NCBI GenBank assembly: GCA_020444265.1
Contig: JAHLLH010000007.1
Coordinates: 1 to 64,000 of the forward strand
DNA length: 64,000 bases
Reading direction: 5' to 3'
DNA from: a bacterium
GTDB taxonomy: Bacteria; Electryoneota; Electryoneia; Electryoneales; Electryoneaceae
Shown one piece after another: positions 3,644-19,295 of the stretch. The position numbers and the translations under genes are program-made. The notes under the pieces are model-generated. The model saw only the letters and a list, made by a program, of their open reading frames with translations. It did not search any database and was not told the origin of the DNA. How positions within the stretch are numbered: position 1 is the stretch's first letter; each line of letters begins with the position of its first letter.

Positions 3644-5374
3644 ATGCGACTTTCGAAAGCCTTTATCCCCACCCTGAAAGAAGTTCCCTCGGATGCAGTT
3701 GTTACCAGTCACCGTCTGATGCTTCGGGCGGGGATGGTTCGCCCCCTGATGGCAGGTGTATACAGCTACCTCCCCTTTGGTCAGCGTGCCTCCCTGAAGG
3801 CACAGAACCTGATCCGCGAAGAGATGGACGCTATTGGCGCCCAGGAATTTTTCCTCCCCGCCATCAACCCGGTGGAGGTATGGGAAGAGACGGGACGTGC
3901 AACGGACTTCGGGCCGGAGATGTTCCACCTGAAAGACCGGAAGGATCGCGAGCTTGTGCTGGCACCGACTCATGAGGAAATTATCTGTTCGGTCGCCCGT
4001 GGAGAAGTTCGTTCCTACAAGCAACTTCCCCAGATCTGGTACCAATTCCAGACGAAATTCCGTGATGAACCACGTCCTCGTTCCGGCGAGCTGCGTACGC
4101 GTCAGTTCATCATGAAGGATGCCTATTCGCTGGATGTCAGCCAGGAAGGGTTGGATGCCAGCTATGCGAAGCATGACGGGGCGTATCGTCGCATCTTCCA
4201 GCGCGCCGGGCTGAACTATTTCGTCGTCGGTGCCTCTTCCGGCCTGATGGGTGGCACCGGATCTGAAGAGTTTATGGTCGAGTCGGATGCTGGCGAAGAT
4301 ACCTGCGCTGTCTGCCATGCATGCGGTTATGCTGCCAATGTCGAGGTGGCCACATCTAACCTGGTGGAAGAAGCAAGCACCGAAGAAAAGCAGCCTTTCG
4401 CAAAAGTGTTAACCCCGGAAAAACGGACGGTCGAAGAGGTCGCGGAGTACCTCGGACGTGGCACCGATAAATTTATCAAGTCCCTCGTTTTCATGGGCGA
4501 TAATGGTCTCGCGATGATTCTCGTGCAAGGGGATGACGAGGTCAACGAATCCAAGCTTCAGCAGTTGATGGGTGCATCGATGCGTCCCGCGCACCCCGAA
4601 GAGGTGAAAGAGGCGATTGGGGCGGAGATCGGCTTCCTCGGTCCTGTGGGACTTGAAGGCAAGCTGCCGATTTATGCCGACAACCGTCTTAAAGGCAAGG
4701 TCAACATGGTCACTGGTGCCAATGAGGACCAGTACCATGTACTTGGTGTGCAGGTGGACGACACCTTCAAACCGGACTCCTACCACGATCTCCGTGTCGT
4801 GGCAGAAGGCGAGCCCTGCCCCGACTGCGGCAAACCGCTCAGCGTGGTCCGTGCCATCGAACTGGGCCATATCTTTAAACTCGGCACCAAGTACAGCGCC
4901 GCGATGGGCGCCACTGTGCTCGATCCCAACGGCAAAGATGTGCCCATCATTATGGGGTCCTACGGCATTGGTGTAGGTCGTCTGGTTGCGGCAGTTCTCG
5001 AGACCAACGCGGACGAAAATGGCGCAGTCTGGCCGATGACCATCGCACCCTTCCATGCGGTCGTGGTGGGAATTAACGCCAAGTCGGACGAGGTTACCGC
5101 CGAATCAGAGCGTCTCTACTCCCTCCTGAAAGAAAAGGGGTTGGATGTCGCTTTGGATGACCGCGATGTCCGTGCCGGCTTTAAATTCAAAGACGCTGAT
5201 CTGCTCGGCTTCCCCTTCCAGGTAGTGGTCAGTGACCGCAACCTCGCTGAAGGGGAGCTCGAGATTAAACGTCGTCGTGACGGCGAAAAACTCCTGCTGC
5301 CCACCGATGAGGCGCTGGCCCAGCTTGATGAATGGGTCGCCGAAGAGTGGCAGCGGGTCAGTCCCGAGGCGTAA
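3644..5374 (+). CDS. proS: Prolyl-tRNA synthetase
   Basis: Class II aminoacyl-tRNA synthetase that charges tRNA-Pro with proline. The 576-residue length and the insertion of an editing (YbaK-like) domain at roughly 230-400 place it in the bacterial long form. The N-terminus (MRLSKAFIPTLKEVP) and the class II motifs FRDEPRPRSGELRTRQF (motif 2) and GSYGIGVGRLVAA (motif 3) are clear. The C-terminal anticodon-binding domain begins near 470 (APFHAVVVGI). It is the first gene of the plus-strand run leading into the serine palmitoyltransferase gene, about 85 bases upstream of that gene's chosen start. Confidence 0.97.
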   Translation: MRLSKAFIPTLKEVPSDAVVTSHRLMLRAGMVRPLMAGVYSYLPFGQRASLKAQNLIREEMDAIGAQEFFLPAINPVEVWEETGRATDFGPEMFHLKDRKDRELVLAPTHEEIICSVARGEVRSYKQLPQIWYQFQTKFRDEPRPRSGELRTRQFIMKDAYSLDVSQEGLDASYAKHDGAYRRIFQRAGLNYFVVGASSGLMGGTGSEEFMVESDAGEDTCAVCHACGYAANVEVATSNLVEEASTEEKQPFAKVLTPEKRTVEEVAEYLGRGTDKFIKSLVFMGDNGLAMILVQGDDEVNESKLQQLMGASMRPAHPEEVKEAIGAEIGFLGPVGLEGKLPIYADNRLKGKVNMVTGANEDQYHVLGVQVDDTFKPDSYHDLRVVAEGEPCPDCGKPLSVVRAIELGHIFKLGTKYSAAMGATVLDPNGKDVPIIMGSYGIGVGRLVAAVLETNADENGAVWPMTIAPFHAVVVGINAKSDEVTAESERLYSLLKEKGLDVALDDRDVRAGFKFKDADLLGFPFQVVVSDRNLAEGELEIKRRRDGEKLLLPTDEALAQLDEWVAEEWQRVSPEA

Positions 5375-5458: not shown

Positions 5459-6688
5459 ATGAGGCGAATTGAAGATCGGGTAAAGGACTTTACTGCCGCC
5501 AGAGAAGTGATGGCATCGGGCCTCTACCCCTATTTCCGCCCCATTGAAAGCGAGCAAGGTGCGACCGTCATGATGGATGGCAAAGATGTCATCATGATGG
5601 GGTCCAACAACTACCTCGGGTTGACCAACCATCCCGAAGTGAAAAAGGCAGCACAGAAAGCGATTGACCAGTACGGCACCGGTTGTGCCGGGTCACGTTT
5701 CCTCAACGGCACCCTCGCGGTGCACCAGGAATGTGAAGAAGTCCTCGCGGATTTCATGGGGACCGAAGCGGCCCTCGTCTTTTCCACTGGCTTTATGACG
5801 AACCAGGGGGTGATCGCCCACCTGGTTCCGCGTGAGGGGGTCCTTCTGCTGGACCGTCTCGATCACGCCAGCATCATCGATGCCGCTCGCCTCAGCTTTG
5901 GGAAGACGATCAAGTTCAACCACTCGGACATGGCGGACCTCGAGAAAAAGCTCCGTGTCCAGAAGAACAAGACGAAGCTGATCGTGGTGGATGGCGTCTT
6001 CTCGATGGAAGGCGACCTCGCGCCGTTGCCGGATATTGTCCACCTCGCGGACAAGTATGGCGCCGATGTAATCGTGGATGATGCCCATGCGGTCGGGGTG
6101 ATCGGCCCGGGTGGGCAGGGAACAGCCTCGCACTTCAGTGTCAAGGACCGCATTCTCGGCACCATCGGCACCTTCAGCAAATCCTTTGCTTCCATCGGTG
6201 GTTTCTTCGCCGGTCCTGAAGATGTTGTCCACTACCTCAAGCACCACAGCCGCGCCCTGATTTTTTCCGCCAGCCCGCCTCCCGCCAACATGGCCGCCGT
6301 GATTAAGGCGGTGGAGATCATTCGACGTGAACCGCAGCGTATCGACCGTGTCTGGGAGTTGACCAACTATTTGAAAAAAGCGCTGCTCGCCGAAGAGTTC
6401 GCCATCGGCAAGCCGGAGTCGCCCATCATTCCTGTCTATGTCGGGGATGATATGACTGTCTTCCGCGCCTGCATGATGTTGCAGGAAGAAGGGGTCTTCG
6501 TCAACCCGGTGATCAGCCCCGCTGTGCCACCCCACCACGCTTTGATCCGGCTCAGTCTGATGTCAACATTGACCGAAAAACAGCTTGACTATGCTGTTGA
6601 AAAACTGGTCAAGGTTGGCAAAGCCCTTGGTTTCGTCGGAATTCAGCCTCCCGAAGGGGTTGAGGTGGCGAAACCAGAAAGGGCGTAG
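5459..6688 (+). CDS. spt: Serine palmitoyltransferase-like alpha-oxoamine synthase
   Basis: PLP enzyme of the alpha-oxoamine synthase family (BioF, KBL, HemA, SPT). Features visible with the ATG at 5459 (409 aa): the DHAS His136, the DDAH motif with Asp207 and His210, and the PLP Lys241 in GTFSKSFASIGG. That lysine context and YGTGCAGSRFLNGT match my recollection of Bacteroidota serine palmitoyltransferases, rather than the BioF (GTLGKAFG) or KBL (GTLGKALGG) versions. Predicted reaction: serine plus acyl thioester to 3-ketosphinganine, in the cytoplasm. The start at 5384 would add 25 residues unlike the family. The following GNAT, SDR and acyl-ligase genes support a ceramide role. BioF activity cannot be strictly excluded. 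Confidence 0.8.
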   Translation: MRRIEDRVKDFTAAREVMASGLYPYFRPIESEQGATVMMDGKDVIMMGSNNYLGLTNHPEVKKAAQKAIDQYGTGCAGSRFLNGTLAVHQECEEVLADFMGTEAALVFSTGFMTNQGVIAHLVPREGVLLLDRLDHASIIDAARLSFGKTIKFNHSDMADLEKKLRVQKNKTKLIVVDGVFSMEGDLAPLPDIVHLADKYGADVIVDDAHAVGVIGPGGQGTASHFSVKDRILGTIGTFSKSFASIGGFFAGPEDVVHYLKHHSRALIFSASPPPANMAAVIKAVEIIRREPQRIDRVWELTNYLKKALLAEEFAIGKPESPIIPVYVGDDMTVFRACMMLQEEGVFVNPVISPAVPPHHALIRLSLMSTLTEKQLDYAVEKLVKVGKALGFVGIQPPEGVEVAKPERA

Positions 6689-6799
6689 CTTCCTCTTCAT
6701 TTGCTCCCCTGTCGAAGAGGTGCCACAGCTTGACGGCTTCGCGGCGCGGCACGTTCTCTAGTTGGTTTCAACGTCTGCACAATGGTTGGAGGATCTGGA

Positions 6800-7945
6800 A
6801 TGAGTTCGGTGAAGGTGGTCGAAGCACAAACCGGTAAAGCCTGGAAGGATTTCCTCAACGTTCCATTCCTCGTGCAAGGCAAGAACGAGCACTGGGTTCC
6901 ACCATTGCGGATCCAGCAGAAAGAGCTTCTCGACACGAAGAAAAACCCCTTCTACCAGAACGCAGATCGTCGCTGCTTCGTCGCCTACCTCGATGGGAAG
7001 CCGGTGGGACGCATTGCTGCGATCAAGGACAACCGCCACAACGAGTACCACAGCGAAAACACGTGCCATTTCGGCCACTTTGATGTAATCGACAATGCCG
7101 AAGTCGCCGAGGCACTGTTCAAAGCGGCTGAGGATGCAGGGCGTGAATGGGGGTTTGACCTGATTCGCGGGCCGTTTAACCCGAATATCAACGAGGATAT
7201 GGGCATTCAGATGGATGCGTATGACACGCCTCCCTATATCATGATGCCCTATAACCCCGCCTATTACCCGACGTTAATTGAAGGACTCGACTACCGGAAG
7301 TCGATGGATGTCTACTGTTACATGATCGAGCAGGAAGATATGAGCGCCAAGCTGAAACGTGGCGCGGAGGTGATCCGGAAACGGTCCCATCTGAACTTCC
7401 GCAAGCTCAACATGAAGCAGTTTTGGCGCGACGCACGGCTGGTCTGGCAGGTTCACATGAAGGCATGGGAAAAGAACTGGGGCGCCGTGCCATTTACCGA
7501 AGAGGAGTTTCACCACCTTGCGAAGAATCTGAAGACGGCAGTTGATCCGGACCAGGTCTTTTTCGCCGAGGATCCGGATACAGGGGAGACGGTTGGCTTT
7601 TCCCTCGCGCTGCCCAACATCAATGAAGCGATCATCAAGATTCGGGATGGCCGTCTCTTTCCCTTTGGCTTGCTGAAGCTGCTCTGGCTGACACGGCCCG
7701 GCAAACTGCAGAGTTCACGTGTGATTGTCATGGGTGTGATCGAAGAGTATCGCAACCGTGGGATCGATGCTCTCTTCTACTATGACCACTTTATCGAAGG
7801 TCAGAAGAAGGGAATTCAACGCGGTGAGATGAGCTGGATTCTCGAGACGAACACGATGATGAACCGTGCCGCCGAAATGATGGGCGGGAAACGATACAAG
7901 ACCTATCGCATCTACGAGAAACCGTTAGGCGGACCCTGGGAATAG
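6800..7945 (+). CDS. GNAT-fold N-acyltransferase, candidate bacterial ceramide synthase
   Basis: A 381-residue protein with a GNAT-like C-terminal half (VIVMGVIEEYRNRGIDALFY resembles the acetyl-CoA-loop motif V-x-x-x-R-x-x-G) and a long N-terminal part (LVQGKNEHWVPPLR, IRGPFNPNINEDMG). Such long GNAT proteins occur next to serine palmitoyltransferases, and the bacterial ceramide synthase of Caulobacter belongs to this superfamily. It would N-acylate the sphingoid base. The start at 6800 follows GGAGG at 6786-6790; the ATG at 6782 lies before that site. The distance to the SPT stop is 111 bases. The function is inferred mainly from neighbourhood and general architecture. Confidence 0.65.
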   Translation: MSSVKVVEAQTGKAWKDFLNVPFLVQGKNEHWVPPLRIQQKELLDTKKNPFYQNADRRCFVAYLDGKPVGRIAAIKDNRHNEYHSENTCHFGHFDVIDNAEVAEALFKAAEDAGREWGFDLIRGPFNPNINEDMGIQMDAYDTPPYIMMPYNPAYYPTLIEGLDYRKSMDVYCYMIEQEDMSAKLKRGAEVIRKRSHLNFRKLNMKQFWRDARLVWQVHMKAWEKNWGAVPFTEEEFHHLAKNLKTAVDPDQVFFAEDPDTGETVGFSLALPNINEAIIKIRDGRLFPFGLLKLLWLTRPGKLQSSRVIVMGVIEEYRNRGIDALFYYDHFIEGQKKGIQRGEMSWILETNTMMNRAAEMMGGKRYKTYRIYEKPLGGPWE

Positions 7946-8011
7946 GGGCTGGTGGCGGTCTGTTGGGTGGACAACGGGGTAGCAAGAGCCCCTTTAATCC
8001 TCGGGTGAGGG

Positions 8012-9532
8012 ATGGCCGATCTGCTGAACAGGCACAAGTTGCTGTTCTGGTGTCTCCTGACCCTGCTCTCTCTATCTGTCGTATCCTCCTGCGCACATGC
8101 CCAACCTGACACAACACTTTCTCTTCAAGCTGATCCACGAACCACGTTCGACTTTGATTCGGGCTACGAATCCGATACCCTTGCCGTGGATTCCACATTA
8201 TCCGATTCGATCCGTCCCAGATTTTCAAGGTCTTTCTACGAGGGCATGCGCCGAGCTCTGCTTTTCGGTGCCCATCAACTCGTCCTCATCGACTCCACCC
8301 TCGCCATTCCGGCGGACAGCACACGATTTGACACCACCATGGTCGGCCAGGTTGGCGGGGGGATGCTCTATGTTTCGCGCCAACTCTACAAAGGGGTGCT
8401 GCTCGCCTTCGATTATGGAGTCACCGCAGTTGAACCGGAACGCATCATCCAACTGAAGGACTATTTCGATCTGCCGGAAAGCCCCTGGGGGTGGTACCCG
8501 ATTGTAGTCGGAACCTCCTACTACCGGGTCAAACTTGGTTCAAAGGTATATTACCGTTCGAAAACGTTTGGCGGCTCGGTGAGTGGTGCTATTGCGGGGA
8601 TGGACAAGTGGACCTCCCGTGTCCGTTTTACCCTGCGTGATGCCAGCGAACGGCAGGTGCGCCAGGTGAACTTGACTCTCAGTCGCAGGCAGGATGACGA
8701 CATGCAGTTCTACGGCATCGGCTCGAATCCGCGCCGTGATCCACGCAGTCATTTTAAACCTGGGACAAAAGAAGAGTATGGCATTTTTCACCAGGACTTT
8801 CAGCAGGCGCAGTTGATTTTTGGTTTACGTGCGAGCGAATACCTGGAGTTTCGCGGGACCTGGGTGCTGCAGAAGCGGCGTCTCTTTTTAACGGGGGGCG
8901 ACGAACGAGCGTTGATCCGTGTGTTTGAGGTGGGCGATCTGGAAGGCACGCACGGAAATGTTCAAGATCTCTACCAGGAAATCGCGATCCGTTTTGATAA
9001 CACGTCGGGGTTGGAGGGGCGCGGGGCCGCCTTGGAGGTTTACGGCGGAATTGTGAACGGCATCGGGGATGACCGACGCTTTTTGCGATATGGATTTGAC
9101 GTTCATAAGTATATGCGGATATTTGGAAATCATTACTTTGTGCCCCGAATCGTAACCAATATCGTCCGTCCCTACAACTCCAGCAACCCCCTCAATTTTA
9201 CTGACTATCCGCGCCACCCCACCTTCCGCGCGGCATCCGATCGAAAATTTGTTCGCTCGGACAACATCGTCCTTGTGCCAGCGCTCGATATTCACAACCG
9301 TCTGACCAACAGTCTAACCGGACGTGTGTTTGTCGATTACCTGCTCGCAACACCATCGATCGATCAACTTCAGCCAGGCGGCGGGATGATCGGGGTGGGA
9401 GCTGGCCTGGTGGTGTACACACGCTATACCGATGTCGCAGGATTGATTGTCTCCTACAGCGAACTCGGCCCGAGGATCAGCCTCTTCATCGGCACCGAAC
9501 CAAACCGCAACGAGCGCAGCCGCTGGCGTTGA
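8012..9532 (+). CDS. Outer-membrane beta-barrel protein
   Basis: A 506-residue secreted protein. A hydrophobic signal segment (LLFWCLLTLLSLSVV) leads to SSCAHAQ, which could be cut by signal peptidase I after AHA or lipidated at the Cys. The rest alternates polar and hydrophobic residues in short strands rich in aromatic residues and Gly and ends in ISLFIGTEPN. This resembles BamA/surface-antigen or related barrels without any visible POTRA repeats. It lies 66 bases after the GNAT gene in the same direction, so it may be co-transcribed with the lipid genes. A transport or assembly role for lipids is only inferred from position. Confidence 0.65.
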   Translation: MADLLNRHKLLFWCLLTLLSLSVVSSCAHAQPDTTLSLQADPRTTFDFDSGYESDTLAVDSTLSDSIRPRFSRSFYEGMRRALLFGAHQLVLIDSTLAIPADSTRFDTTMVGQVGGGMLYVSRQLYKGVLLAFDYGVTAVEPERIIQLKDYFDLPESPWGWYPIVVGTSYYRVKLGSKVYYRSKTFGGSVSGAIAGMDKWTSRVRFTLRDASERQVRQVNLTLSRRQDDDMQFYGIGSNPRRDPRSHFKPGTKEEYGIFHQDFQQAQLIFGLRASEYLEFRGTWVLQKRRLFLTGGDERALIRVFEVGDLEGTHGNVQDLYQEIAIRFDNTSGLEGRGAALEVYGGIVNGIGDDRRFLRYGFDVHKYMRIFGNHYFVPRIVTNIVRPYNSSNPLNFTDYPRHPTFRAASDRKFVRSDNIVLVPALDIHNRLTNSLTGRVFVDYLLATPSIDQLQPGGGMIGVGAGLVVYTRYTDVAGLIVSYSELGPRISLFIGTEPNRNERSRWR

Positions 9533-9819
9533 TGAAGTCACCCTCATCGCAGGGTTCTGGTCGACAGGGCTCCGCGCCACCCGTCGCCATAGCTTTCTGG
9601 CGTGGGTGGCCCGGGCACTCCGCTGCCCGGGTTTCAAACCACCTCATAGCATCCCGCCCTTCGATCCTTCGGAACGTCGAGCTGGAGCCCGACGAGACCC
9701 CGGGACCACGCTCTCCTCTTGTCAAAACCCAGTCGGATTCGTACCCTTTGCCATGGGGAACCACCGTATCATGCACCCCATCGTGGAAAATAAACGCAGT
9801 AGCACGTGAAGGAATACAC
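9533..9819. other. Intergenic region with GGCCCGGG hairpin repeat
   Basis: Between the barrel gene and the reductase gene. Positions 9610-9617 (CCCGGGCA) pair with 9624-9631 (TGCCCGGG), a member of the GGTGGCCCGGGC-type repeats also seen near 16100, 31680, 43050, 53520, 54730 and 58220. An open frame runs through this region in phase with the reductase, but its residues look non-coding. No promoter was identified. Confidence 0.5.
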
Positions 9820-11193
9820 ATGTCGCGCACGGTACTGATTACAGGAGCGAACGGGTTTGTCGGCAGCCACATTGTTGACGCACTGCTCCGGCACGGCGAC
9901 AACGTTCGTGCGATGGTCCGTCCAACTTCCAACCTGCGTTGGCTTGAAGAAAAGCCGGTGGAGATTGTTTACGGCAACCTTCAGGATATCGAAAGCCTCA
10001 AGAAGGTGGTAAAGGGTGTGGACGTGGTGGTCCACAACGCAGGCGTGGTCAGCGCAGAAGACAAGTACCACTATTACCAGCACAACACCGAGGGGACACA
10101 CAACCTGGTGAAAGCGGTCCTCGAGGTCGCTCCGAAATTGAAACGGTTTCTCTTCGTCTCCAGCCAGGCAGCAGGAGGGCCGACAAAAGGCCACGAATTA
10201 CGCAAGGAAGAGGATCATCCGGAACCGATCACCGACTACGGCAAAAGCAAACTGCTGGCGGAGAACTGGCTGAAGCGCTACATGGACTTTCTCCCGATCA
10301 CCATCATCCGTCCCCCAGCGGTCTATGGTCCGCGTGACGATGCCTTCCTCATCCTCTTCAAGATGATTGAACGGGGGCTGAATCCCTTATTCGGGGCGGG
10401 TAGGATGGTCTCGATGGTTCATGTGCAGGACCTGGCAAGGCAGGTGGTACTGCAGCTCGAGCACGACAAGGCGATTGGGGAAATTTTTTACGCTTCACCT
10501 TTCCCACCGCATCAGCTGGAGGAGTTCAACAACACGATCGCCAAGGTTGTTGGATCGACACCACGACGTATTGTCATCCCGGACATTTTTTTGCGTGCCG
10601 TCTATCCCTTGATCTACCCGGCGCTGAACCTGTTCATGAAAAAACCACCGTTCCGTGTCGACAAACTGCCTGACATGCTGACCCCGCGCTGGACCATCAG
10701 CGGCGACAAGGCCGCCGAACGATTGGGATTCGAAGGCAAGTTCCCCCTGCTGGCAGGGGTGGGTCAGACCGCCGAATGGTACCGATGGAAAAAATGGATG
10801 ACCACCAGGCGCGACCGTCTGAAGGCACGTGGCGAAGCGCGGATGGAAACACGAATGCATAACGGTCACGCGCGCGGGTACGACCCTTCGTGCGACCTGT
10901 GCGGGTTGGCCTTTGATGGGGAACTCAAAACGACCAAGCACTACGAAGACGATGAGTTTATTATTGTTGACTGCCTGATCTGCCGTGTGCCAATGGCTGT
11001 ACTGAAAGAGCATCGTGCCAGCTTCACCGAGGATGAAAAGAAACGTCTGCTGACCATCTTCAAGGATCTTTTTGGCGACAAGCATCACCCGGACTTTGAG
11101 CAGCGGCGGATACCGGAGCACGCACACGTCCATTTCCGCACCACACAACACGCTCCTCCCTGGGTGCGTCGCACAGATGACATGAAAGCATGA
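9820..11193 (+). CDS. NAD-dependent reductase/epimerase fused to a HIT-like domain; candidate ceramide reductase
   Basis: A 457-residue two-domain protein. Residues 1 to about 330 form an extended SDR: Rossmann motif TGANGFVG (8-15), catalytic Tyr140 and Lys144 in YGKSK, and a preceding VSSQ serine. From about 355 there is a separate domain with CxxC at 358-361 and 385-388, the stretch HYEDDEFIIVD, and H-x-H-x-H at 434, 436 and 438, which resembles a histidine-triad (HIT) fold with a bound metal. The Caulobacter 3-ketoceramide reductase is an SDR encoded near its SPT gene, so that role is plausible. ATG 9820 follows a GAAGGA; the open frame extends upstream without protein-like sequence. The operon ends at the terminator at 11214. 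Confidence 0.75.
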   Translation: MSRTVLITGANGFVGSHIVDALLRHGDNVRAMVRPTSNLRWLEEKPVEIVYGNLQDIESLKKVVKGVDVVVHNAGVVSAEDKYHYYQHNTEGTHNLVKAVLEVAPKLKRFLFVSSQAAGGPTKGHELRKEEDHPEPITDYGKSKLLAENWLKRYMDFLPITIIRPPAVYGPRDDAFLILFKMIERGLNPLFGAGRMVSMVHVQDLARQVVLQLEHDKAIGEIFYASPFPPHQLEEFNNTIAKVVGSTPRRIVIPDIFLRAVYPLIYPALNLFMKKPPFRVDKLPDMLTPRWTISGDKAAERLGFEGKFPLLAGVGQTAEWYRWKKWMTTRRDRLKARGEARMETRMHNGHARGYDPSCDLCGLAFDGELKTTKHYEDDEFIIVDCLICRVPMAVLKEHRASFTEDEKKRLLTIFKDLFGDKHHPDFEQRRIPEHAHVHFRTTQHAPPWVRRTDDMKA

Positions 11194-11213
11194 TGTGAAT
11201 CGATACATCTGTG

Positions 11214-11243
11214 ACGGGACCTCGTAAAGGGGTCCCGTTTTTT
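11214..11243 (+). terminator. Intrinsic terminator after the reductase gene
   Basis: ACGGGACC (11214-11221) pairs with GGTCCCGT (11231-11238) and runs into six T. Confidence 0.9.
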
Positions 11244-11422
11244 GTTGGCAAGTGAGGGGAAACACCTACCACGAGTAGCAGTATGCTACACAACACAACC
11301 CTAATTGGCGCTGTCTTGAAGCAGAATCATAAATGAACACGAGAAGCCTTGACGGTAATAAGAATCTCTAACCGTTGTTATTACAGTGACTTCTCTTGAG
11401 CTTTATTCGTCGAGTCTGAATC

Positions 11423-11438
11423 TGGCACACCCATTGCC
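11423..11438 (+). promoter_or_regulatory. Sigma-54 (-24/-12) promoter
   Basis: TGGCAC, five bases, then TTGCC. The GG and GC dinucleotides are exactly 12 bases apart, as required for sigma-54 holoenzyme. The predicted start of transcription is near 11449, giving a leader of about 30 bases before the ATG at 11478. A sigma-54 activator is encoded at 21131-22690. No enhancer sites were identified in the 180 bases upstream. Confidence 0.8.
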
Positions 11439-11477
11439 TTTACTGGGGGTGAACAAGACAACGAATTGGAGGACAAG

Positions 11478-11816
11478 ATGAAGAAGTTTACTCTTGCCAT
11501 AATGATAGCAGGTTTTTTCGCCGTGACGGCAAACGTGCAGGCACGTCCATTCTATAATGCCAGCGCGAAAGTAAAAATGCCGCTCGAACAGCCTGTCGAC
11601 AAGGGCCCGTTCAACGAGCGCGACCAGCGCTTCAATGAGGACCCCGTCTTCATCGGCCCGTTCCAGATTCATCACTATTGGCACAACGAAGATCCGGTTT
11701 CCAAGGGTCCCTTCAACGATCGTGTTGCCTTCCCGCTGGAAGACCCGCTTGATGAAGGTCCGCAGCCACCGCATCCCTGGCTGAAGCTGGAAAAAGAACG
11801 TAGAAGCACCAGATAA
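11478..11816 (+). CDS. Small secreted protein with four 17-residue repeats
   Basis: A 112-residue protein of unknown function. Residues 1-22 form a signal peptide (MKKFTLAIMIAGFFAVTANVQA). The mature part holds four tandem repeats with consensus N-E-D-P-V-x-x-G-P-F-x-x-R; the Pro of each repeat is at 39, 56, 73 and 90, an exact period of 17. The C-terminus is Pro/His/Lys/Arg-rich. A GGAGGA sits five bases before the ATG, so the TTG start at 11466 is not needed. The gene is a single unit between the sigma-54 promoter at 11423 and the terminator at 11984, which suggests strong regulated expression. Confidence 0.8.
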   Translation: MKKFTLAIMIAGFFAVTANVQARPFYNASAKVKMPLEQPVDKGPFNERDQRFNEDPVFIGPFQIHHYWHNEDPVSKGPFNDRVAFPLEDPLDEGPQPPHPWLKLEKERRSTR

Positions 11817-11835
11817 ACTTTGGGTTGTCAGAGAC

Positions 11836-11976
11836 CCCGACACCGGATGGCCATTCGTCTTCCGATCGGATCCCCAATCCGACGAATGCCCTACCCTCAA
11901 GAAAGACCTTCCCAACCCTCTCCTATCGGACCGACCGCTGGGTCGGGTCCGATGGGGAGACGGATGACCATCCAAC
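11836..11976 (+). other. Structured 3' untranslated region
   Basis: GGATGGCCATTCGTC near 11845 pairs with GACGGATGACCATCC near 11959 with two mismatches. Inside this arm, ATCGGACCGACC and GGTCGGGTCCGAT (about 11926-11953) form a 12-bp hairpin with a bulge. It lies between the stop of the small secreted protein and its terminator. Confidence 0.5.
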
Positions 11977-11983
11977 CTGTACC

Positions 11984-12010
11984 GCCCCGCTAATGAAGCG
12001 GGGCTTTTTT
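11984..12010 (+). terminator. Intrinsic terminator of the secreted repeat protein gene
   Basis: GCCCCGCT (11984-11991) and AGCGGGGC (11997-12004) enclose AATGA and are followed by six T. Confidence 0.9.
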
Positions 12011-12017
12011 GTGGGGT

Positions 12018-13208
12018 TCAACTCTTTGCTGCAGTCTGCACGAGTTCCGGGTTACGGAGCACACTGATCAGGGAGAGGCCTGAAGCGGTTAGTCCGGCAA
12101 TAGCGGCAATCGGGAAAATAATGGTGTAGCCATACACTTCGGCCAGTTGACCAAATCCAAACGCCGCAATCACACTGCCCACATCCATCATACCTGTCAG
12201 CAACGCGATCACACTGCCGGAGTACTCACGTGGGGCACGGCTGTAGCCCAAGGCATTGACTGCCGGGAAAGCGAGAGCATGCGCGCTGCCGGACAGTAAG
12301 CCAGCCATAAAGAGCATCAGGGTGGAATAGCTGAAAAAGATGGTCGCCATCCCGGAGCCATAGAGGACAAACGCCGGGATCATGATGCGTCGTACCCCGA
12401 AACGGTCCCCCCATTTCCGTCCAATGAACCGAACGGTCATTCCGGCAATCGCATAGCCGGTGAAGTAGAGGCCAAAGCTTGCGATGCCACGATCTCGAGC
12501 GAGGGGTGCGAGGAAAAACTGGCCGGAAGAGAAACAGATAGATAGCAGCAGGCCGAGCAGATAGACCAGGATCAGGTTCCGGGCACGGAGCAGGGTCAGG
12601 GCACCACGTAAAGTAGGTGTGGAGCGTGGTCCTTCGGCCGGCTTCAGCTTGAGAAAGGCGATCACCAGGACACCAACCAGCCCGAAGATCGTTACCAGCA
12701 GGAAAAAGGCGGGCAGGCCGTACGTGTCGTAGACTGTTTCCCCGGCGAAGGGGCCGACAATGTTGGCCATCAAGCCGGAGAAGCCGAACATGGCGATCGC
12801 TTCATTCCGTCGATTCGTCGGCGCCACTTGGGCTGCGAGGGTAAAAAAGGCCGAGAAATGGGCACCGAAGCCAAATCCATGCAGGAGACGGATCACCCAC
12901 ACCCATTCGTTCAACCCCTGGTCCAGCAGCGCCCAGTACCCAAGAGAGGGGAGAGTGATAAGGAGGCTGCCGAGCAGCAGGACCGGCTTGACCCCGATAC
13001 GGTCAATCATTAACCCGATCAGCGGCCGTGAGATCACAGCAGAGAGCGCAGCCATCCCCATGAACCAGCCCACGGTCTCCGCAGAACCGCCCATCTCCTT
13101 TACGTACAAAGGATAAATGGCGTTGTTGGTGAAATTCAACGCCATGAAGAAATTGTAGGCGAACCCGAGCGCAAAGGTGCCGTTATAGAGTTCAGACCGG
13201 CTGGACAA
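12018..13208 (-). CDS. MFS transporter
   Basis: A 396-residue protein with about twelve hydrophobic segments and the MFS motif A variant SRPLIGLMIDRIGVKP after TM2, repeated weakly in the second half (IGRKWGDRFGVRR). This fits a drug/sugar-type facilitator of the inner membrane. The substrate cannot be read from sequence. It is a single gene on the minus strand, divergent from the acyl ligase at 13426 and convergent with the secreted repeat protein, and it interrupts the plus-strand lipid genes. The C-terminal TAAKS is polar. Confidence 0.9.
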   Translation of the reverse strand: MSSRSELYNGTFALGFAYNFFMALNFTNNAIYPLYVKEMGGSAETVGWFMGMAALSAVISRPLIGLMIDRIGVKPVLLLGSLLITLPSLGYWALLDQGLNEWVWVIRLLHGFGFGAHFSAFFTLAAQVAPTNRRNEAIAMFGFSGLMANIVGPFAGETVYDTYGLPAFFLLVTIFGLVGVLVIAFLKLKPAEGPRSTPTLRGALTLLRARNLILVYLLGLLLSICFSSGQFFLAPLARDRGIASFGLYFTGYAIAGMTVRFIGRKWGDRFGVRRIMIPAFVLYGSGMATIFFSYSTLMLFMAGLLSGSAHALAFPAVNALGYSRAPREYSGSVIALLTGMMDVGSVIAAFGFGQLAEVYGYTIIFPIAAIAGLTASGLSLISVLRNPELVQTAAKS

Positions 13209-13425
13209 ACCACGACCTCCTGTCAGAAGCAGGGAATATAGGCCCCCTCAAACGGCGAATTGGGCGACTCTCGGGATTTGACGCTCTCGTGCGGCCTGCT
13301 GTTGCACTCGAGGGGCTGATGGCGAAACCTTCCCCTTGCGATACAGGTGAAGCAACCCACCCGCATTCGGCATAGTTGACAGGCTGGATGGCTGGCAGGG
13401 TTCCAGGGAAGCGAGGAGGAAGAGG

Positions 13426-15171
13426 ATGAGTCGTTACTGGGATAAATTGAGGCCGGACAAAGGGGTTTTTCCGCTAAGCGAATTGGTGCAACGGACCGCA
13501 GATGAGGTTGGGGATCGTCCCGTGATGCGTACCCACAACGGGAAAGATGGGTACGACGAGATTACCTACAACCAATTGCGGGACCGGATCAACGCCATCG
13601 CAAGGTGGTTGGTGGACCAGGGGATTAGATCGGGCGACCGTGTCGCGGTACTCGGTGAAAACAGTCCCTCCTGGGCAGCAAGCTACCTCGGAATTCAGAC
13701 CGCCGGCGCCATTGTTGTCCCGGTTGACAGCTTGATGCCACCCTCCGGTATGCGTCACATCCTCTCCGATTCCGGGGCACGGATGCTTTTCATGTCGCAA
13801 CGGTTCACCACGGTGATCGAGGAGTTGGAAACCGTTTCCACCCTCGAGAAATACATCTGCTTCGCGGAAGGACAGGGGTCAGATTACCTCTACCTCGAAG
13901 ATGTTGTCAATGAAGGCATGGGGATCGAGGCCGACCTGCCGAAGCGCAGCCTCGATGAACTCGCCGCTTTTCTGTATACGTCGGGGACCACCGGCCACAG
14001 CAAGGGTGTGATGCTTTCACAGCGAAATCTCGCCTCCAATGTTGCCGCTGCAAGCCGTATCCTCGACATCGGCCCCGAAGATACCTTTATCTCGGTACTG
14101 CCGGTCCATCACAGTTTTGAAGCAACCGCAGGATTCCTGCTTCCCCTTTATTGCGGCGCATCCATCACCTATGCGCGCAGCCTGAAGAGCGCGGAAATCG
14201 TCGAAGATATCAAGAACACCGGCGTTACCCTGATGGTGGGAGTGCCGCTGCTCTATGAAAAGATGCAGCAGGGCATGATGCGTAAAGTGCGTCAACAGGG
14301 CAAGGAAAAGCTTGTCAATTCCCTGATGGGGGTTGTGAAGGCAGGCAAGAAAGTCGGCCTGAACCTGGGGGCACCCCTCTTCAAGAGCCTCCGGACAAAA
14401 GGTGGCCTCGACAAGGTGCGCATCTTTGTCAGCGGCGGTGGGCCGTTAGATCCGGTGACAGCGCACTTCTTTAACAGCCTGGGCCTGCGTCTCTTCCAGG
14501 GGTATGGCCTGACCGAGACCTCGCCGGTAACTCATGTCAACCTTCCCTTCCGGATCCGTCATGAGACCGTCGGGCCGCCGGTGCCGGGCGTTGAGTGCAA
14601 GATCATCAACCCCAACGACCAGGGTGTGGGCGAAGTCTGTGTCAAGGGACCCAACATCTTTCAGGGGTACTTCAAGAACGAGGAAGCAACCAAGGCAACC
14701 TTCACCGAGGATGGCTGGTTCAAGACCGGCGATCTCGGGTTCATCCACAAGGATGAATACCTGCAGATCACCGGACGTGCCAAAAACATGCTGGTGACCG
14801 GCGGTGGAAAAAATGTCTACCCGGAAGAGATCGAGTTCTATCTCAACCGTACTTCCTTCATCGCGGAATCGCTTGTGCTGGGAATCCCACGTGAAAAGGG
14901 GCTTGGCGATGAAGTGGCGGCGTTGATCTATCCCGACTACGAGCAGCTCGATCTCCATTTCGAGGAGCAGGGGAAGACAGCGACCGAAAAAGATGTGTTC
15001 GAACTGGTGAAGGAAACGATTCGCGAAGCTCAGAAAGAACTGGCCGACTATAAACGGATCAAAACCTTCCGTATTGTCGAAGAAGAATTCCAGAAGACAT
15101 CGAAACGTTCGATCAAGCGATTCTTGTACAACGGTGAAATGGTCAAGGTAAACGGGGAGAAAGTGGGATGA
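13426..15171 (+). CDS. AMP-forming long-chain fatty-acyl-CoA/ACP ligase
   Basis: ANL-superfamily enzyme of 581 residues that activates a carboxylic acid as acyl-adenylate and transfers it to CoA or a carrier protein. Motifs: P-loop YTSGTTGHSKG (184-194), YGLTET (360-365), WFKTGDLG, and the C-terminal Lys context KTSKRSIKR. A GAGGAGGAAGAGG precedes the ATG. The stop overlaps the start of the TPR gene (ATGA), so the two are translationally coupled. Because it is near an SPT, a GNAT and an SDR, it may supply acyl chains for sphingolipid synthesis. General fatty-acid uptake or salvage is an equally simple role. Confidence 0.88.
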   Translation: MSRYWDKLRPDKGVFPLSELVQRTADEVGDRPVMRTHNGKDGYDEITYNQLRDRINAIARWLVDQGIRSGDRVAVLGENSPSWAASYLGIQTAGAIVVPVDSLMPPSGMRHILSDSGARMLFMSQRFTTVIEELETVSTLEKYICFAEGQGSDYLYLEDVVNEGMGIEADLPKRSLDELAAFLYTSGTTGHSKGVMLSQRNLASNVAAASRILDIGPEDTFISVLPVHHSFEATAGFLLPLYCGASITYARSLKSAEIVEDIKNTGVTLMVGVPLLYEKMQQGMMRKVRQQGKEKLVNSLMGVVKAGKKVGLNLGAPLFKSLRTKGGLDKVRIFVSGGGPLDPVTAHFFNSLGLRLFQGYGLTETSPVTHVNLPFRIRHETVGPPVPGVECKIINPNDQGVGEVCVKGPNIFQGYFKNEEATKATFTEDGWFKTGDLGFIHKDEYLQITGRAKNMLVTGGGKNVYPEEIEFYLNRTSFIAESLVLGIPREKGLGDEVAALIYPDYEQLDLHFEEQGKTATEKDVFELVKETIREAQKELADYKRIKTFRIVEEEFQKTSKRSIKRFLYNGEMVKVNGEKVG

Positions 15172-16439: not shown

Positions 16440-19295
16440 TTACTTCACCAGCACGACGCGCTGTTGCGCGTCCATCTTGCCGGGTACCGTCGCACGGACA
16501 AAGTAGACACCACTTGCCAGACGGCTACCGTTCAGACTGAAACGATGGTCACCTGCCTGGTAATTGCCGGAAGCAAGTTTCTGGACACGACGGCCCTGGA
16601 TGTCGAAGATTTCGACGGTCAGGTCGGCACGTTCCGGCAGAGCGACAGTCACGGTCGTCGCGGCGTTAAACGGGTTCGGATATGCCGGCTTCAAGGTGTA
16701 CTCGTTCGGAGTGCCGAGGGTCGGTTCAGGGTTGACACTCACCGTGCTCAGGAAGGCGGAGTAAGTACCGCGTCCGTGGGTACCAATTGCGATAAAGCCG
16801 TCCTCGTGGCGCACATCCATTGTTGTGACCCAGACATTCCCAAGTACATCCGCACCTTCTTGTTCCCAGACGATTTCCTCGGCGTCGAGGTCAGTCGTCG
16901 AGAAGAGGCCGATGGTAGTGCCGACCAGTACAAAGGGCTCATCATTGACATAGGTCAGCTCGCTCCAGAAACAGGAGGGGCCTGCACCGCTGCCATCCGG
17001 GTTTTCCTCGAGATTGCCGCCGACATCACGCCAGGTTGTACCACCATCTTCCGTGTAGAGCAGGGAAGGAATATTGTAATTGGTGAAGGTTGCCAGAGCG
17101 ACATTCGGGTTGGTCGGGTCGATGGAAATATCGTGCAACCAGCCACCCTGCGGGAAGGTGAGCGGATCGGTCACATTGGTCACAACCGGATTGTCGCCAA
17201 GCGGATCTTCGATACGGTAGATGCGCGAAATATCCAGCGTGTTCGGGTTGTAGGCACCATAATAGGCGACACGCTGTCCCTCGATCTCCGCTGAAATATC
17301 AACCGCCGTCGTCAACCAACCCTGCACCTCGCTTCCTTGAATTTCATGGAAGTCCGGATCTGCGACCACATCCTCGCAGATGCGTGCAGAGTTCTCGTCC
17401 ACCAGGATCATGATCCTGGAATCATCCGGTGCGAGACGCAGCGGGGTGATCCAACGGACCAGGTTGCCGCCCGGATTAAACCAGTCGAAATCGACAAACT
17501 CAAAGTTTTCGTCAAGCACAATCCGGAGGAAGGTGCCGCCATATTGCGTGGTGGCATACCAGGAGCGATGGTCCGGGTCTTCCGCTGCGCCGCATTCGCA
17601 TGCCATACCATCGCCGCCATAAATGTTGTACCAGGGGTCTTCGAAATTCTCGCCCCCGGTAATCCAGGTGCCGTTGTCCTGCATACCCCCCTGAAATGCT
17701 TCACTGCCGGGAGTCAGCGGATCGAGTGCGACCCAGTAGAACTGGGTAGTTACGTACCCCTCGATATACTGCCAGGGGAAGGGATCCTCGTCGCCGGGGA
17801 TGTAAAGAGGTTCGGTGGTTTTACTCAAGCCGCCGTCATGGGAGGAATAAAAAACGGTGGGATCATCCGGGTTGAAGACCAGGTTGTGCACATCGGCATG
17901 ATGGTTCGGGTAACTGATGTCTTCACCATCCTCGCCCGGCAGCTCGCCATAGTAGTAGTTGTAGCCGCCGATCCAATGCTGGTTGTTCTGCGTCGTAAAG
18001 CCATCCATCGACCGGAAGAGGCTGGTGCCGCCAATGTAGACGACATCCTCCAGGGTCGGGTGAATAGCCACCGTCATGTTGTAGCCGCCCTGGGCTGCAT
18101 AGATCGCACCAAACCCGAGGTTCGCTTCACCACGGAAATCGGGCATATTGACGGACAGGTCGGTCCACTCGTCCTGCCCTTCACGATTGTCATACATCCA
18201 GAGACTGTATTGGTTCTCAAACCCGGACCCGGGAGTTTGACCGATCACATAGACCAGTTCGTTGTCCGCCTGGAAATAAGCGGTGACCACACGGTCCCAG
18301 TCCTGGCCCCAGCCGGCGGGGGTGACATTGTCAAAGGTTTCGTCGCCGGCCACCTTTTTCCAGATACCGCCATTGACACATTCGCTGGCGAGAGTTGCCC
18401 AGACGGTGCCATCATCGGTGATGATCACATCGGTCCATGCGGACGGCACCGTGTTCGGGCTGCCCAGCATCATCTCCCAGGTCTCGCCGCCATCCAGACT
18501 GCGGTGAATCGAGCCATAGGTTGCCGCCCACACCTCTTCCTGCTCGAGGTTGGCAGGGTTGACCGCTACTTTGAAGACAACATCGAAGGGCGAATCAAAG
18601 AAGTTGACCAGTGCGGAGGTGGATTCGAGTAGCGTCCAGGTTTCACCACCGTCGGTTGATTTAAAGATGCCATCGCCGGTGTAGGTCGGGATACGGCTGT
18701 TGATGGACCTCGATCCACTACCGGTATACTCGCCGGTGCCGTAGTACCAGGTATCGGTGTGGCCCTCGCGACGGTCCTGCGCGATGCAAGTGATGCCAGG
18801 CATGTCGGTAATCTCCGTGGTCATCGACCAGGTGTCACCCGCATCTTCGCTGATCCACAACCCGCCTGTTACTCCGCCTGCAATCACACGATCCGTATTT
18901 GCCACATCGACTGCCAGCGCACGGGTTCGTCCGCCGATATTCCAAGGCCCTCGCGCCTGCCAATCCTGGGTGGCGATCATCGATTCGTTCTGCTTCAGGG
19001 CAGAACCTCTAACCGGGAGGCTGCGAGCATACGCCAGTTCTCGAGTCCGCATGCCCCGCGGAATCTGACCGGTTTTGGGATCATGCAGACGGATCCAGTC
19101 AAATTCCTTCCGGCTCATCGGACTGTCTTCTTCCTCGCCGATGGTCATTTTCAGTTGATCAGGATCGGGAAGCTGGGCCAGCGCCTCTTCCAATGAGGGT
19201 TTTTTCTCAGGCACAATGAGGAAATACCCGAAGATCAGCACCAGTGCGACAACCATTAGCAGGGAGGCGCGAAACACCAGGCGTGAAGCAGTCAT
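16440..19295 (-). CDS. Secreted BNR/VPS10-type beta-propeller protein with C-terminal sorting domain
   Basis: A 951-residue extracellular protein. A single N-terminal hydrophobic segment (SLLMVVALVLIFGYFLIV) serves as signal or anchor. Asp-box-like sialidase/VPS10 repeats follow, for example WISEDAGDTW, FKSTDGGETW, HRSLDGGETW and LYTEDGGTTW, implying a seven- or eight-bladed propeller. The last 80 or so residues form a type IX secretion-type sorting domain (AYPNPFNAATTVTVALP, EIFDIQGRRVQKL, SRLASGVYFVRA). Glycan-binding or enzymatic activity is unknown; no clear sialidase active site was identified. It lies downstream of the kinase gene with a 159-bp gap and has its own terminator. Confidence 0.85.
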   Translation of the reverse strand: MTASRLVFRASLLMVVALVLIFGYFLIVPEKKPSLEEALAQLPDPDQLKMTIGEEEDSPMSRKEFDWIRLHDPKTGQIPRGMRTRELAYARSLPVRGSALKQNESMIATQDWQARGPWNIGGRTRALAVDVANTDRVIAGGVTGGLWISEDAGDTWSMTTEITDMPGITCIAQDRREGHTDTWYYGTGEYTGSGSRSINSRIPTYTGDGIFKSTDGGETWTLLESTSALVNFFDSPFDVVFKVAVNPANLEQEEVWAATYGSIHRSLDGGETWEMMLGSPNTVPSAWTDVIITDDGTVWATLASECVNGGIWKKVAGDETFDNVTPAGWGQDWDRVVTAYFQADNELVYVIGQTPGSGFENQYSLWMYDNREGQDEWTDLSVNMPDFRGEANLGFGAIYAAQGGYNMTVAIHPTLEDVVYIGGTSLFRSMDGFTTQNNQHWIGGYNYYYGELPGEDGEDISYPNHHADVHNLVFNPDDPTVFYSSHDGGLSKTTEPLYIPGDEDPFPWQYIEGYVTTQFYWVALDPLTPGSEAFQGGMQDNGTWITGGENFEDPWYNIYGGDGMACECGAAEDPDHRSWYATTQYGGTFLRIVLDENFEFVDFDWFNPGGNLVRWITPLRLAPDDSRIMILVDENSARICEDVVADPDFHEIQGSEVQGWLTTAVDISAEIEGQRVAYYGAYNPNTLDISRIYRIEDPLGDNPVVTNVTDPLTFPQGGWLHDISIDPTNPNVALATFTNYNIPSLLYTEDGGTTWRDVGGNLEENPDGSGAGPSCFWSELTYVNDEPFVLVGTTIGLFSTTDLDAEEIVWEQEGADVLGNVWVTTMDVRHEDGFIAIGTHGRGTYSAFLSTVSVNPEPTLGTPNEYTLKPAYPNPFNAATTVTVALPERADLTVEIFDIQGRRVQKLASGNYQAGDHRFSLNGSRLASGVYFVRATVPGKMDAQQRVVLVK

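Follow-up and report, generated by a model that had tools for sequence, protein, structure and literature searches.

A likely ceramide backbone locus of an Electryoneota bacterium, with a HIT-like domain fused to its CerR-like reductase

The genes spt, cerS and cerR are ceramide genes of Caulobacter (PMC11324152). In Caulobacter crescentus, spt, acpR, cerR and aasR occupy CC_1162-1165, while cerS is found at CC_1154 (PMC11324152). Serine palmitoyltransferases (SPTs) of Bacteroidetes use acyl-CoA, and rhodobacterial SPTs prefer AcpR (PMC11324152). CerR has been placed in the Caulobacter periplasm, where the source of its reducing power is unexplained (PMC11087976) and free NADH is lacking (PMC11087976, PMC11324152). 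In a Black Sea study, the combination of Spt, bCerS and CerR marks likely producers, and Spt-like genes are reported from 38 phyla (PMC11334938); the main text of that study does not name AABM5-125-24, which is Candidatus Electryoneota of the FCB group (PMC10439189). Because Spt-like genes have been reported so widely, the type of ceramide locus described here is, on that account, already known, and what is new is the fusion of a CerR-like reductase with a HIT-like domain.

The window, a stretch of 64,000 nucleotides, is part of contig C6 of a 4.33 Mb genome that is 94% complete. Positions 5459-11193 most probably constitute a ceramide backbone locus of an Electryoneota bacterium, composed of Spt, a bCerS-type GNAT and a CerR-like SDR, a reading that the sequence evidence places at a probability of roughly 0.88. 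The observations behind it concern protein families, folds and how the genes associate across genomes. The gene set is the standard bacterial three-enzyme ceramide set and is unusual only in the HIT-like fusion to the reductase. It shares with Caulobacter an Spt, a GNAT N-acyltransferase and an SDR reductase, and differs in that it has no dedicated ACP or acyl-ACP synthetase, the cerS-type gene adjoins spt, and the reductase carries the HIT-like domain. With the Bacteroidota (Sphingobacterium SPT 3a2b; Reichenbachiella loci L066 and L069) it has in common a CFB-type Spt and a bCerS-type GNAT, as well as an SDR in L069; the Reichenbachiella loci, in contrast, have the order GNAT-SPT(-SDR), and their genomes are devoid of the HIT-like domain. 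Clusters of Gemmatimonadota, Myxococcota, Zixibacteria and others (L046, L079, L089, L044) also keep the three core genes close together, many as SPT-GNAT-SDR, but their SDR has no HIT-like domain.

The sequence-only reading had proposed a ceramide locus from an SPT-type enzyme, a GNAT, an SDR and a ligase, and all four are present on the plus strand, at 5459-6688, 6782-7945, 9820-11193 and 13426-15171, respectively. The proposal stands for the core of Spt, GNAT and SDR; it is not supported for the ligase and an outer-membrane barrel as members or for a gene order of the lineage's own. The C-terminal domain of the SDR, and the minus-strand MFS gene and hairpin that set the ligase apart, are features beyond that reading.

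Spt (5459-6688, plus strand), a PLP enzyme of 409 aa, is an alpha-oxoamine synthase of CFB (Bacteroidota) type. Pfam and NCBIfam searches assign it to aminotransferase class I/II, with NF047600 (SerpalmtaseCFB) as the top NCBIfam model at 569.5 bits, leading by about 160 bits over the next-best models, the BioF/Kbl subfamily (407 bits), Kbl (390) and BioF (379). The score lies below the curated NF047600 cutoff of 640, which restricts use of the 'CFB equivalog' name and leaves the SPT assignment standing. Among PDB entries, the Sphingobacterium SPT (3a2b/8guh) matches at 444 bits, against 305 for the next kind (BioF/Kbl). The PLP-lysine motif GTFSKSFASIGG aligns with 3a2b, YGTGCAGSRFLNGT is near-identical to the Sphingobacterium SPT in the alignment with 3a2b, and the lysine stretch TFSKS.ASxGG is also common to both enzymes. 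A tree of 77 rows was built that included E. coli kbl and bioF, plasmid-borne hemA, bioF and kbl, and proven SPTs. Branching of the PLP enzyme with BioF or KBL had been named as the outcome that would count against an SPT; the window enzyme falls instead in the SPT clade (SH-aLRT 100), with SPTs of Sphingobacterium, Parabacteroides and rhodobacteria and apart from KBL, BioF and ALAS, whose identities the tree rules out. The quick tree method and the long BioF branches blur fine detail and not the split between SPT and KBL. A paralog from the same genome, L002, groups with KBL outside the SPT clade. The genome carrying locus L071 has an Spt within the Electryoneota Spt clade of the tree and an RpoB identity of 66-70%, compared with 80-82% inside the family and 63-71% inside the phylum; RpoB identity by itself does not delimit the phylum, as another named genome (L049) reached 65%.

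The second core gene (6782-7945, plus strand) encodes a 387-aa tandem GNAT of the bCerS/YghO family. Pfam and NCBIfam return only a weak GNAT match, and the AF2 model (pLDDT 88) has tandem GNATs as its structure matches (2wpw, E 6e-15). The gene is found in 36 of 39 Electryoneota genomes; this near-phylum-wide presence of a ceramide-synthase-type gene adds support to sphingolipid production by an FCB phylum that is uncultured and inhabits anoxic waters. Named genomes yielded no match to the GNAT sequence used singly; queried with the GNAT alignment, they gave at least 587 encoded relatives, and the top 80 were retained. An SPT lies within 10 kb of the GNAT in 49 of these 80, so the clustering is not due to chance. 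Across the GNAT family, 67 of 104 rows, from many phyla, have an SPT within 5 kb; no SPT was seen near another 36, some of them on short contigs, and family membership alone is therefore insufficient proof of function. Failure of the GNAT to cluster with ceramide synthases had likewise been set as an adverse outcome. In the tree it groups with SPT-linked GNATs, and both YghO from an E. coli plasmid cluster and a Roseomonas cluster gene, to which it has 36-38% identity, fall inside its family. These bCerS and CerR references are genes from clusters of the same type in Roseomonas and E. coli and not assayed enzymes; the two clusters carry an SPT, an ACP, an SDR and a fatty acyl-AMP ligase, in agreement with the five Caulobacter ceramide genes of PMC11324152. 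The comparisons support the GNAT as a putative N-acyltransferase of the bacterial ceramide synthase type. In genomes G002 and G006, the GNAT is directly preceded by a related gene encoding about 400 aa, whose start (LHGLRGVGKT) is ATPase-like (L119:5642-6832; L120:11366-12577), and in G001 a second, short piece of a GNAT with 78% identity over 72 residues lies downstream of the intact gene (L121:10549-10866).

The third core gene has its real start at ATG 9820 and ends at 11193. Positions 9820-10870 (plus strand) encode a CerR-like extended SDR domain, an NAD(P)-dependent reductase (PF01370, E 1e-34) that keeps the GxxGxxG cofactor motif (TGANGFVGS), SSQ and YxxxK. With Roseomonas CerR as query, the window SDR comes out modestly ahead of every other protein of the genome (62.9 vs 50.7 bits). 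It shares only about 35% identity with proteobacterial CerR, along part of its length, and the deep branches of the SDR tree are too weakly resolved to demonstrate strict orthology between the two. An SDR of the same type lies within 6 kb of Spt or the GNAT in 46 of 49 locus rows. Assignment as a probable CerR-like reductase of the Spt/bCerS cluster is thus supported. A terminator-like hairpin, an 11-pair stem followed by a T run (11213-11239, plus strand), comes directly after the SDR stop and closes the unit.

The reading frame of the SDR extends about 100 aa beyond the reductase (about 10885-11193, plus strand) into a domain with the pattern CxLC...CxxCxxPMxVLKxH...QRxIPxHAHxHxR, in which the HxHxH histidines H78/H80/H82 are invariant. 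Pfam and NCBIfam hold no credible family for it, and a PDB profile search placed a HIT protein on top without significance (E 0.2). The leading structure matches of its AF2 model (pLDDT 79) are HIT proteins, the best being 6d6j (E 5.6e-4, TM about 0.6). With the predicted fold and the HxHxH triad both present, the domain can be described as HIT-like. It resembles HINT-type HIT hydrolases (6d6j, 5uvm, human HINT1) in this fold, in the triad and in a CxxC near the N-terminus (5uvm), and differs from them in its low identity (~13-20%), an extra CxxC, and its fusion or adjacency to an SDR.

The domain is present in 14 of 39 Electryoneota genomes. In the window's own family, all seven members carry it fused to the SDR, and six other genomes of the phylum encode it separately, as a gene or ORF directly after an SDR of this type; in G033 it directly follows the GNAT instead. 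Of the 50 genomes to which loci from the scan of named genomes led, 49 are devoid of it, the sole exception being that of L071, which belongs to the same phylum. The association of the HIT-like domain with the reductase is therefore strong. The Roseomonas sphingolipid cluster contains an unrelated-looking HIT family protein beside LptF/LptG (L173:21159-21626); a common origin with the window domain was rejected for want of meaningful similarity. A literature search found no paper that connects HIT proteins to SPT or to bacterial ceramide synthesis, although such a paper may exist.

HIT proteins act on nucleotides as hydrolases or transferases and often form dimers, which suggests two options for the domain, the handling of a nucleotide cofactor or by-product and the scaffolding of a complex. 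Tentatively, and at somewhat less than even odds, the HIT-like protein may in either capacity be an undescribed component of ceramide reduction in Electryoneota and a partner of CerR. The fusion of a cytosolic nucleotide-binding domain to CerR suggests that reduction is probably cytoplasmic here, which, if the partner reading is true, would differ from the periplasmic placement reported for Caulobacter. Fused or neighbouring, the domain offers a handle on the open problem of how and where bacterial CerR obtains reducing equivalents.

From the sequences we infer substrates, products and sphingolipid production by the organism as follows. Spt would form 3-ketosphinganine from L-serine and an acyl thioester, which is most probably acyl-CoA; the bCerS-type tandem GNAT would add a second acyl chain to the amine; and the CerR-like SDR, with the HIT-like domain as its candidate dedicated partner, would use NAD(P)H to reduce the 3-keto group, yielding dihydroceramide. 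For the order of N-acylation and reduction we follow Caulobacter, in which this point is under continuing debate. These two steps could instead serve an analogue, either a sulfonolipid built from cysteate or a 1-deoxy-ceramide built from alanine. In favour of this, 1-deoxysphingolipids have been linked to SPT-like enzymes of anoxic marine bacteria (PMC11334938), and sulfonolipid synthesis has been postulated to be similar to the sphingolipid pathway (PMC9304779). The window enzyme, however, matches the solved cysteate acyltransferase 28eh at 216 bits, less than half of its score with the Sphingobacterium SPT, and its sequence is compatible with the use of alanine; an analogue is considered unlikely and a ceramide backbone remains the preferred product. 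Head-group genes are probably located elsewhere in the genome. In G003, a genome of a sister genus, the GNAT is followed by genes for a CDP-alcohol phosphotransferase and a nucleotidyltransferase (L124:3129-4749); their orthologs in the window genome, with 58% and 51% identity, form a pair on contig C12 near 102 kb (L189). This C12 pair is a candidate lead and is no evidence of head-group chemistry.

The remaining genes of the region appear to lie outside the conserved set. Between the GNAT and the SDR, a 506-aa secreted, probable outer-membrane protein (8012-9532, plus strand) has a signal peptide and no Pfam or NCBIfam family, so that 'barrel' stays a description of the sequence-only reading. 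Of 40 relatives only 2 have homologs of it, and these lie on contigs other than that of the locus; this distribution removes it from the set as an accessory and also disposes of a role as conserved lipid exporter. Downstream of the hairpin are a small secreted ORF with imperfect EDPVxxGPF-like repeats and no family match (11466-11816) and an MFS transporter gene on the minus strand (12018-13208; PF07690, E 1.9e-43), which forms a boundary outside the unit. Beyond it lies the AMP-binding ligase (13426-15171, plus strand; PF00501, E 4.5e-86), and further on a 951-aa secreted protein (16440-19295, minus strand) with BNR-like repeats and, by eye, a C-terminal PNPFN sorting-type tail.

The ligase could be a dedicated acyl activator, the counterpart of AasR, in which case the locus would be the rhodobacterial five-gene set minus its ACP. 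It lies on the same strand 2.2 kb downstream, and an acyl-activating gene belongs to the Roseomonas and E. coli clusters. Yet its best Pfam and NCBIfam matches are long-chain acyl-CoA ligases, the E. coli cluster ligase matches several ligases of this genome about equally weakly, and the MFS gene and terminator-like hairpin intervene. Its orthologs (59-69% identity) are on contigs other than that of the GNAT in 6 of 6 family genomes, whose assemblies are fragmented, and a ligase-like gene accompanies only 2 of 64 SPT loci. On this lack of synteny the ligase is rejected as part of the cluster, and an AasR counterpart is considered unlikely. Since the outer-membrane protein and the ligase are unlinked in relatives and the hairpin directly follows the SDR stop, the ceramide locus is bounded at 5459-11193. 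That no ACP gene had been seen was borne out: the window contains none, a hidden ACP near the locus was also looked for and not found, and the dedicated ACP beside Spt that marks the rhodobacterial AcpR/AasR-dependent set is thus missing. This is expected of a Bacteroidota-type, acyl-CoA-using SPT. A single free-standing ACP is encoded in the entire genome, on contig C4; the other PP-binding domains lie in NRPS/PKS-like ORFs of 1100-2500 aa, several of them in an NRPS/PKS-like cluster on contig C11 at about 295-323 kb.

Far less probable still is a KBL or BioF of threonine or biotin metabolism among unrelated neighbours, for although the superfamily is shared and the Kbl and BioF models also score, the SPT model scores far higher, the tree places the enzyme with SPTs and the genome has its separate KBL-type paralog, neither tdh nor biotin genes adjoin, and a GNAT and an SDR accompany Spt across phyla. 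SPT-GNAT-SDR is the commonest complete order among the 64 SPT loci, which come from many phyla, so the arrangement of the ceramide locus in the window is ordinary and the idea of a gene order peculiar to this lineage is not upheld. Sister genera keep the order ProS, Spt, GNAT, SDR where their contigs reach, with differing, unrelated genes in the gaps. The prolyl-tRNA synthetase gene proS (3644-5374, plus strand) lies directly upstream of Spt, a position conserved in many loci of the phylum, including L071.
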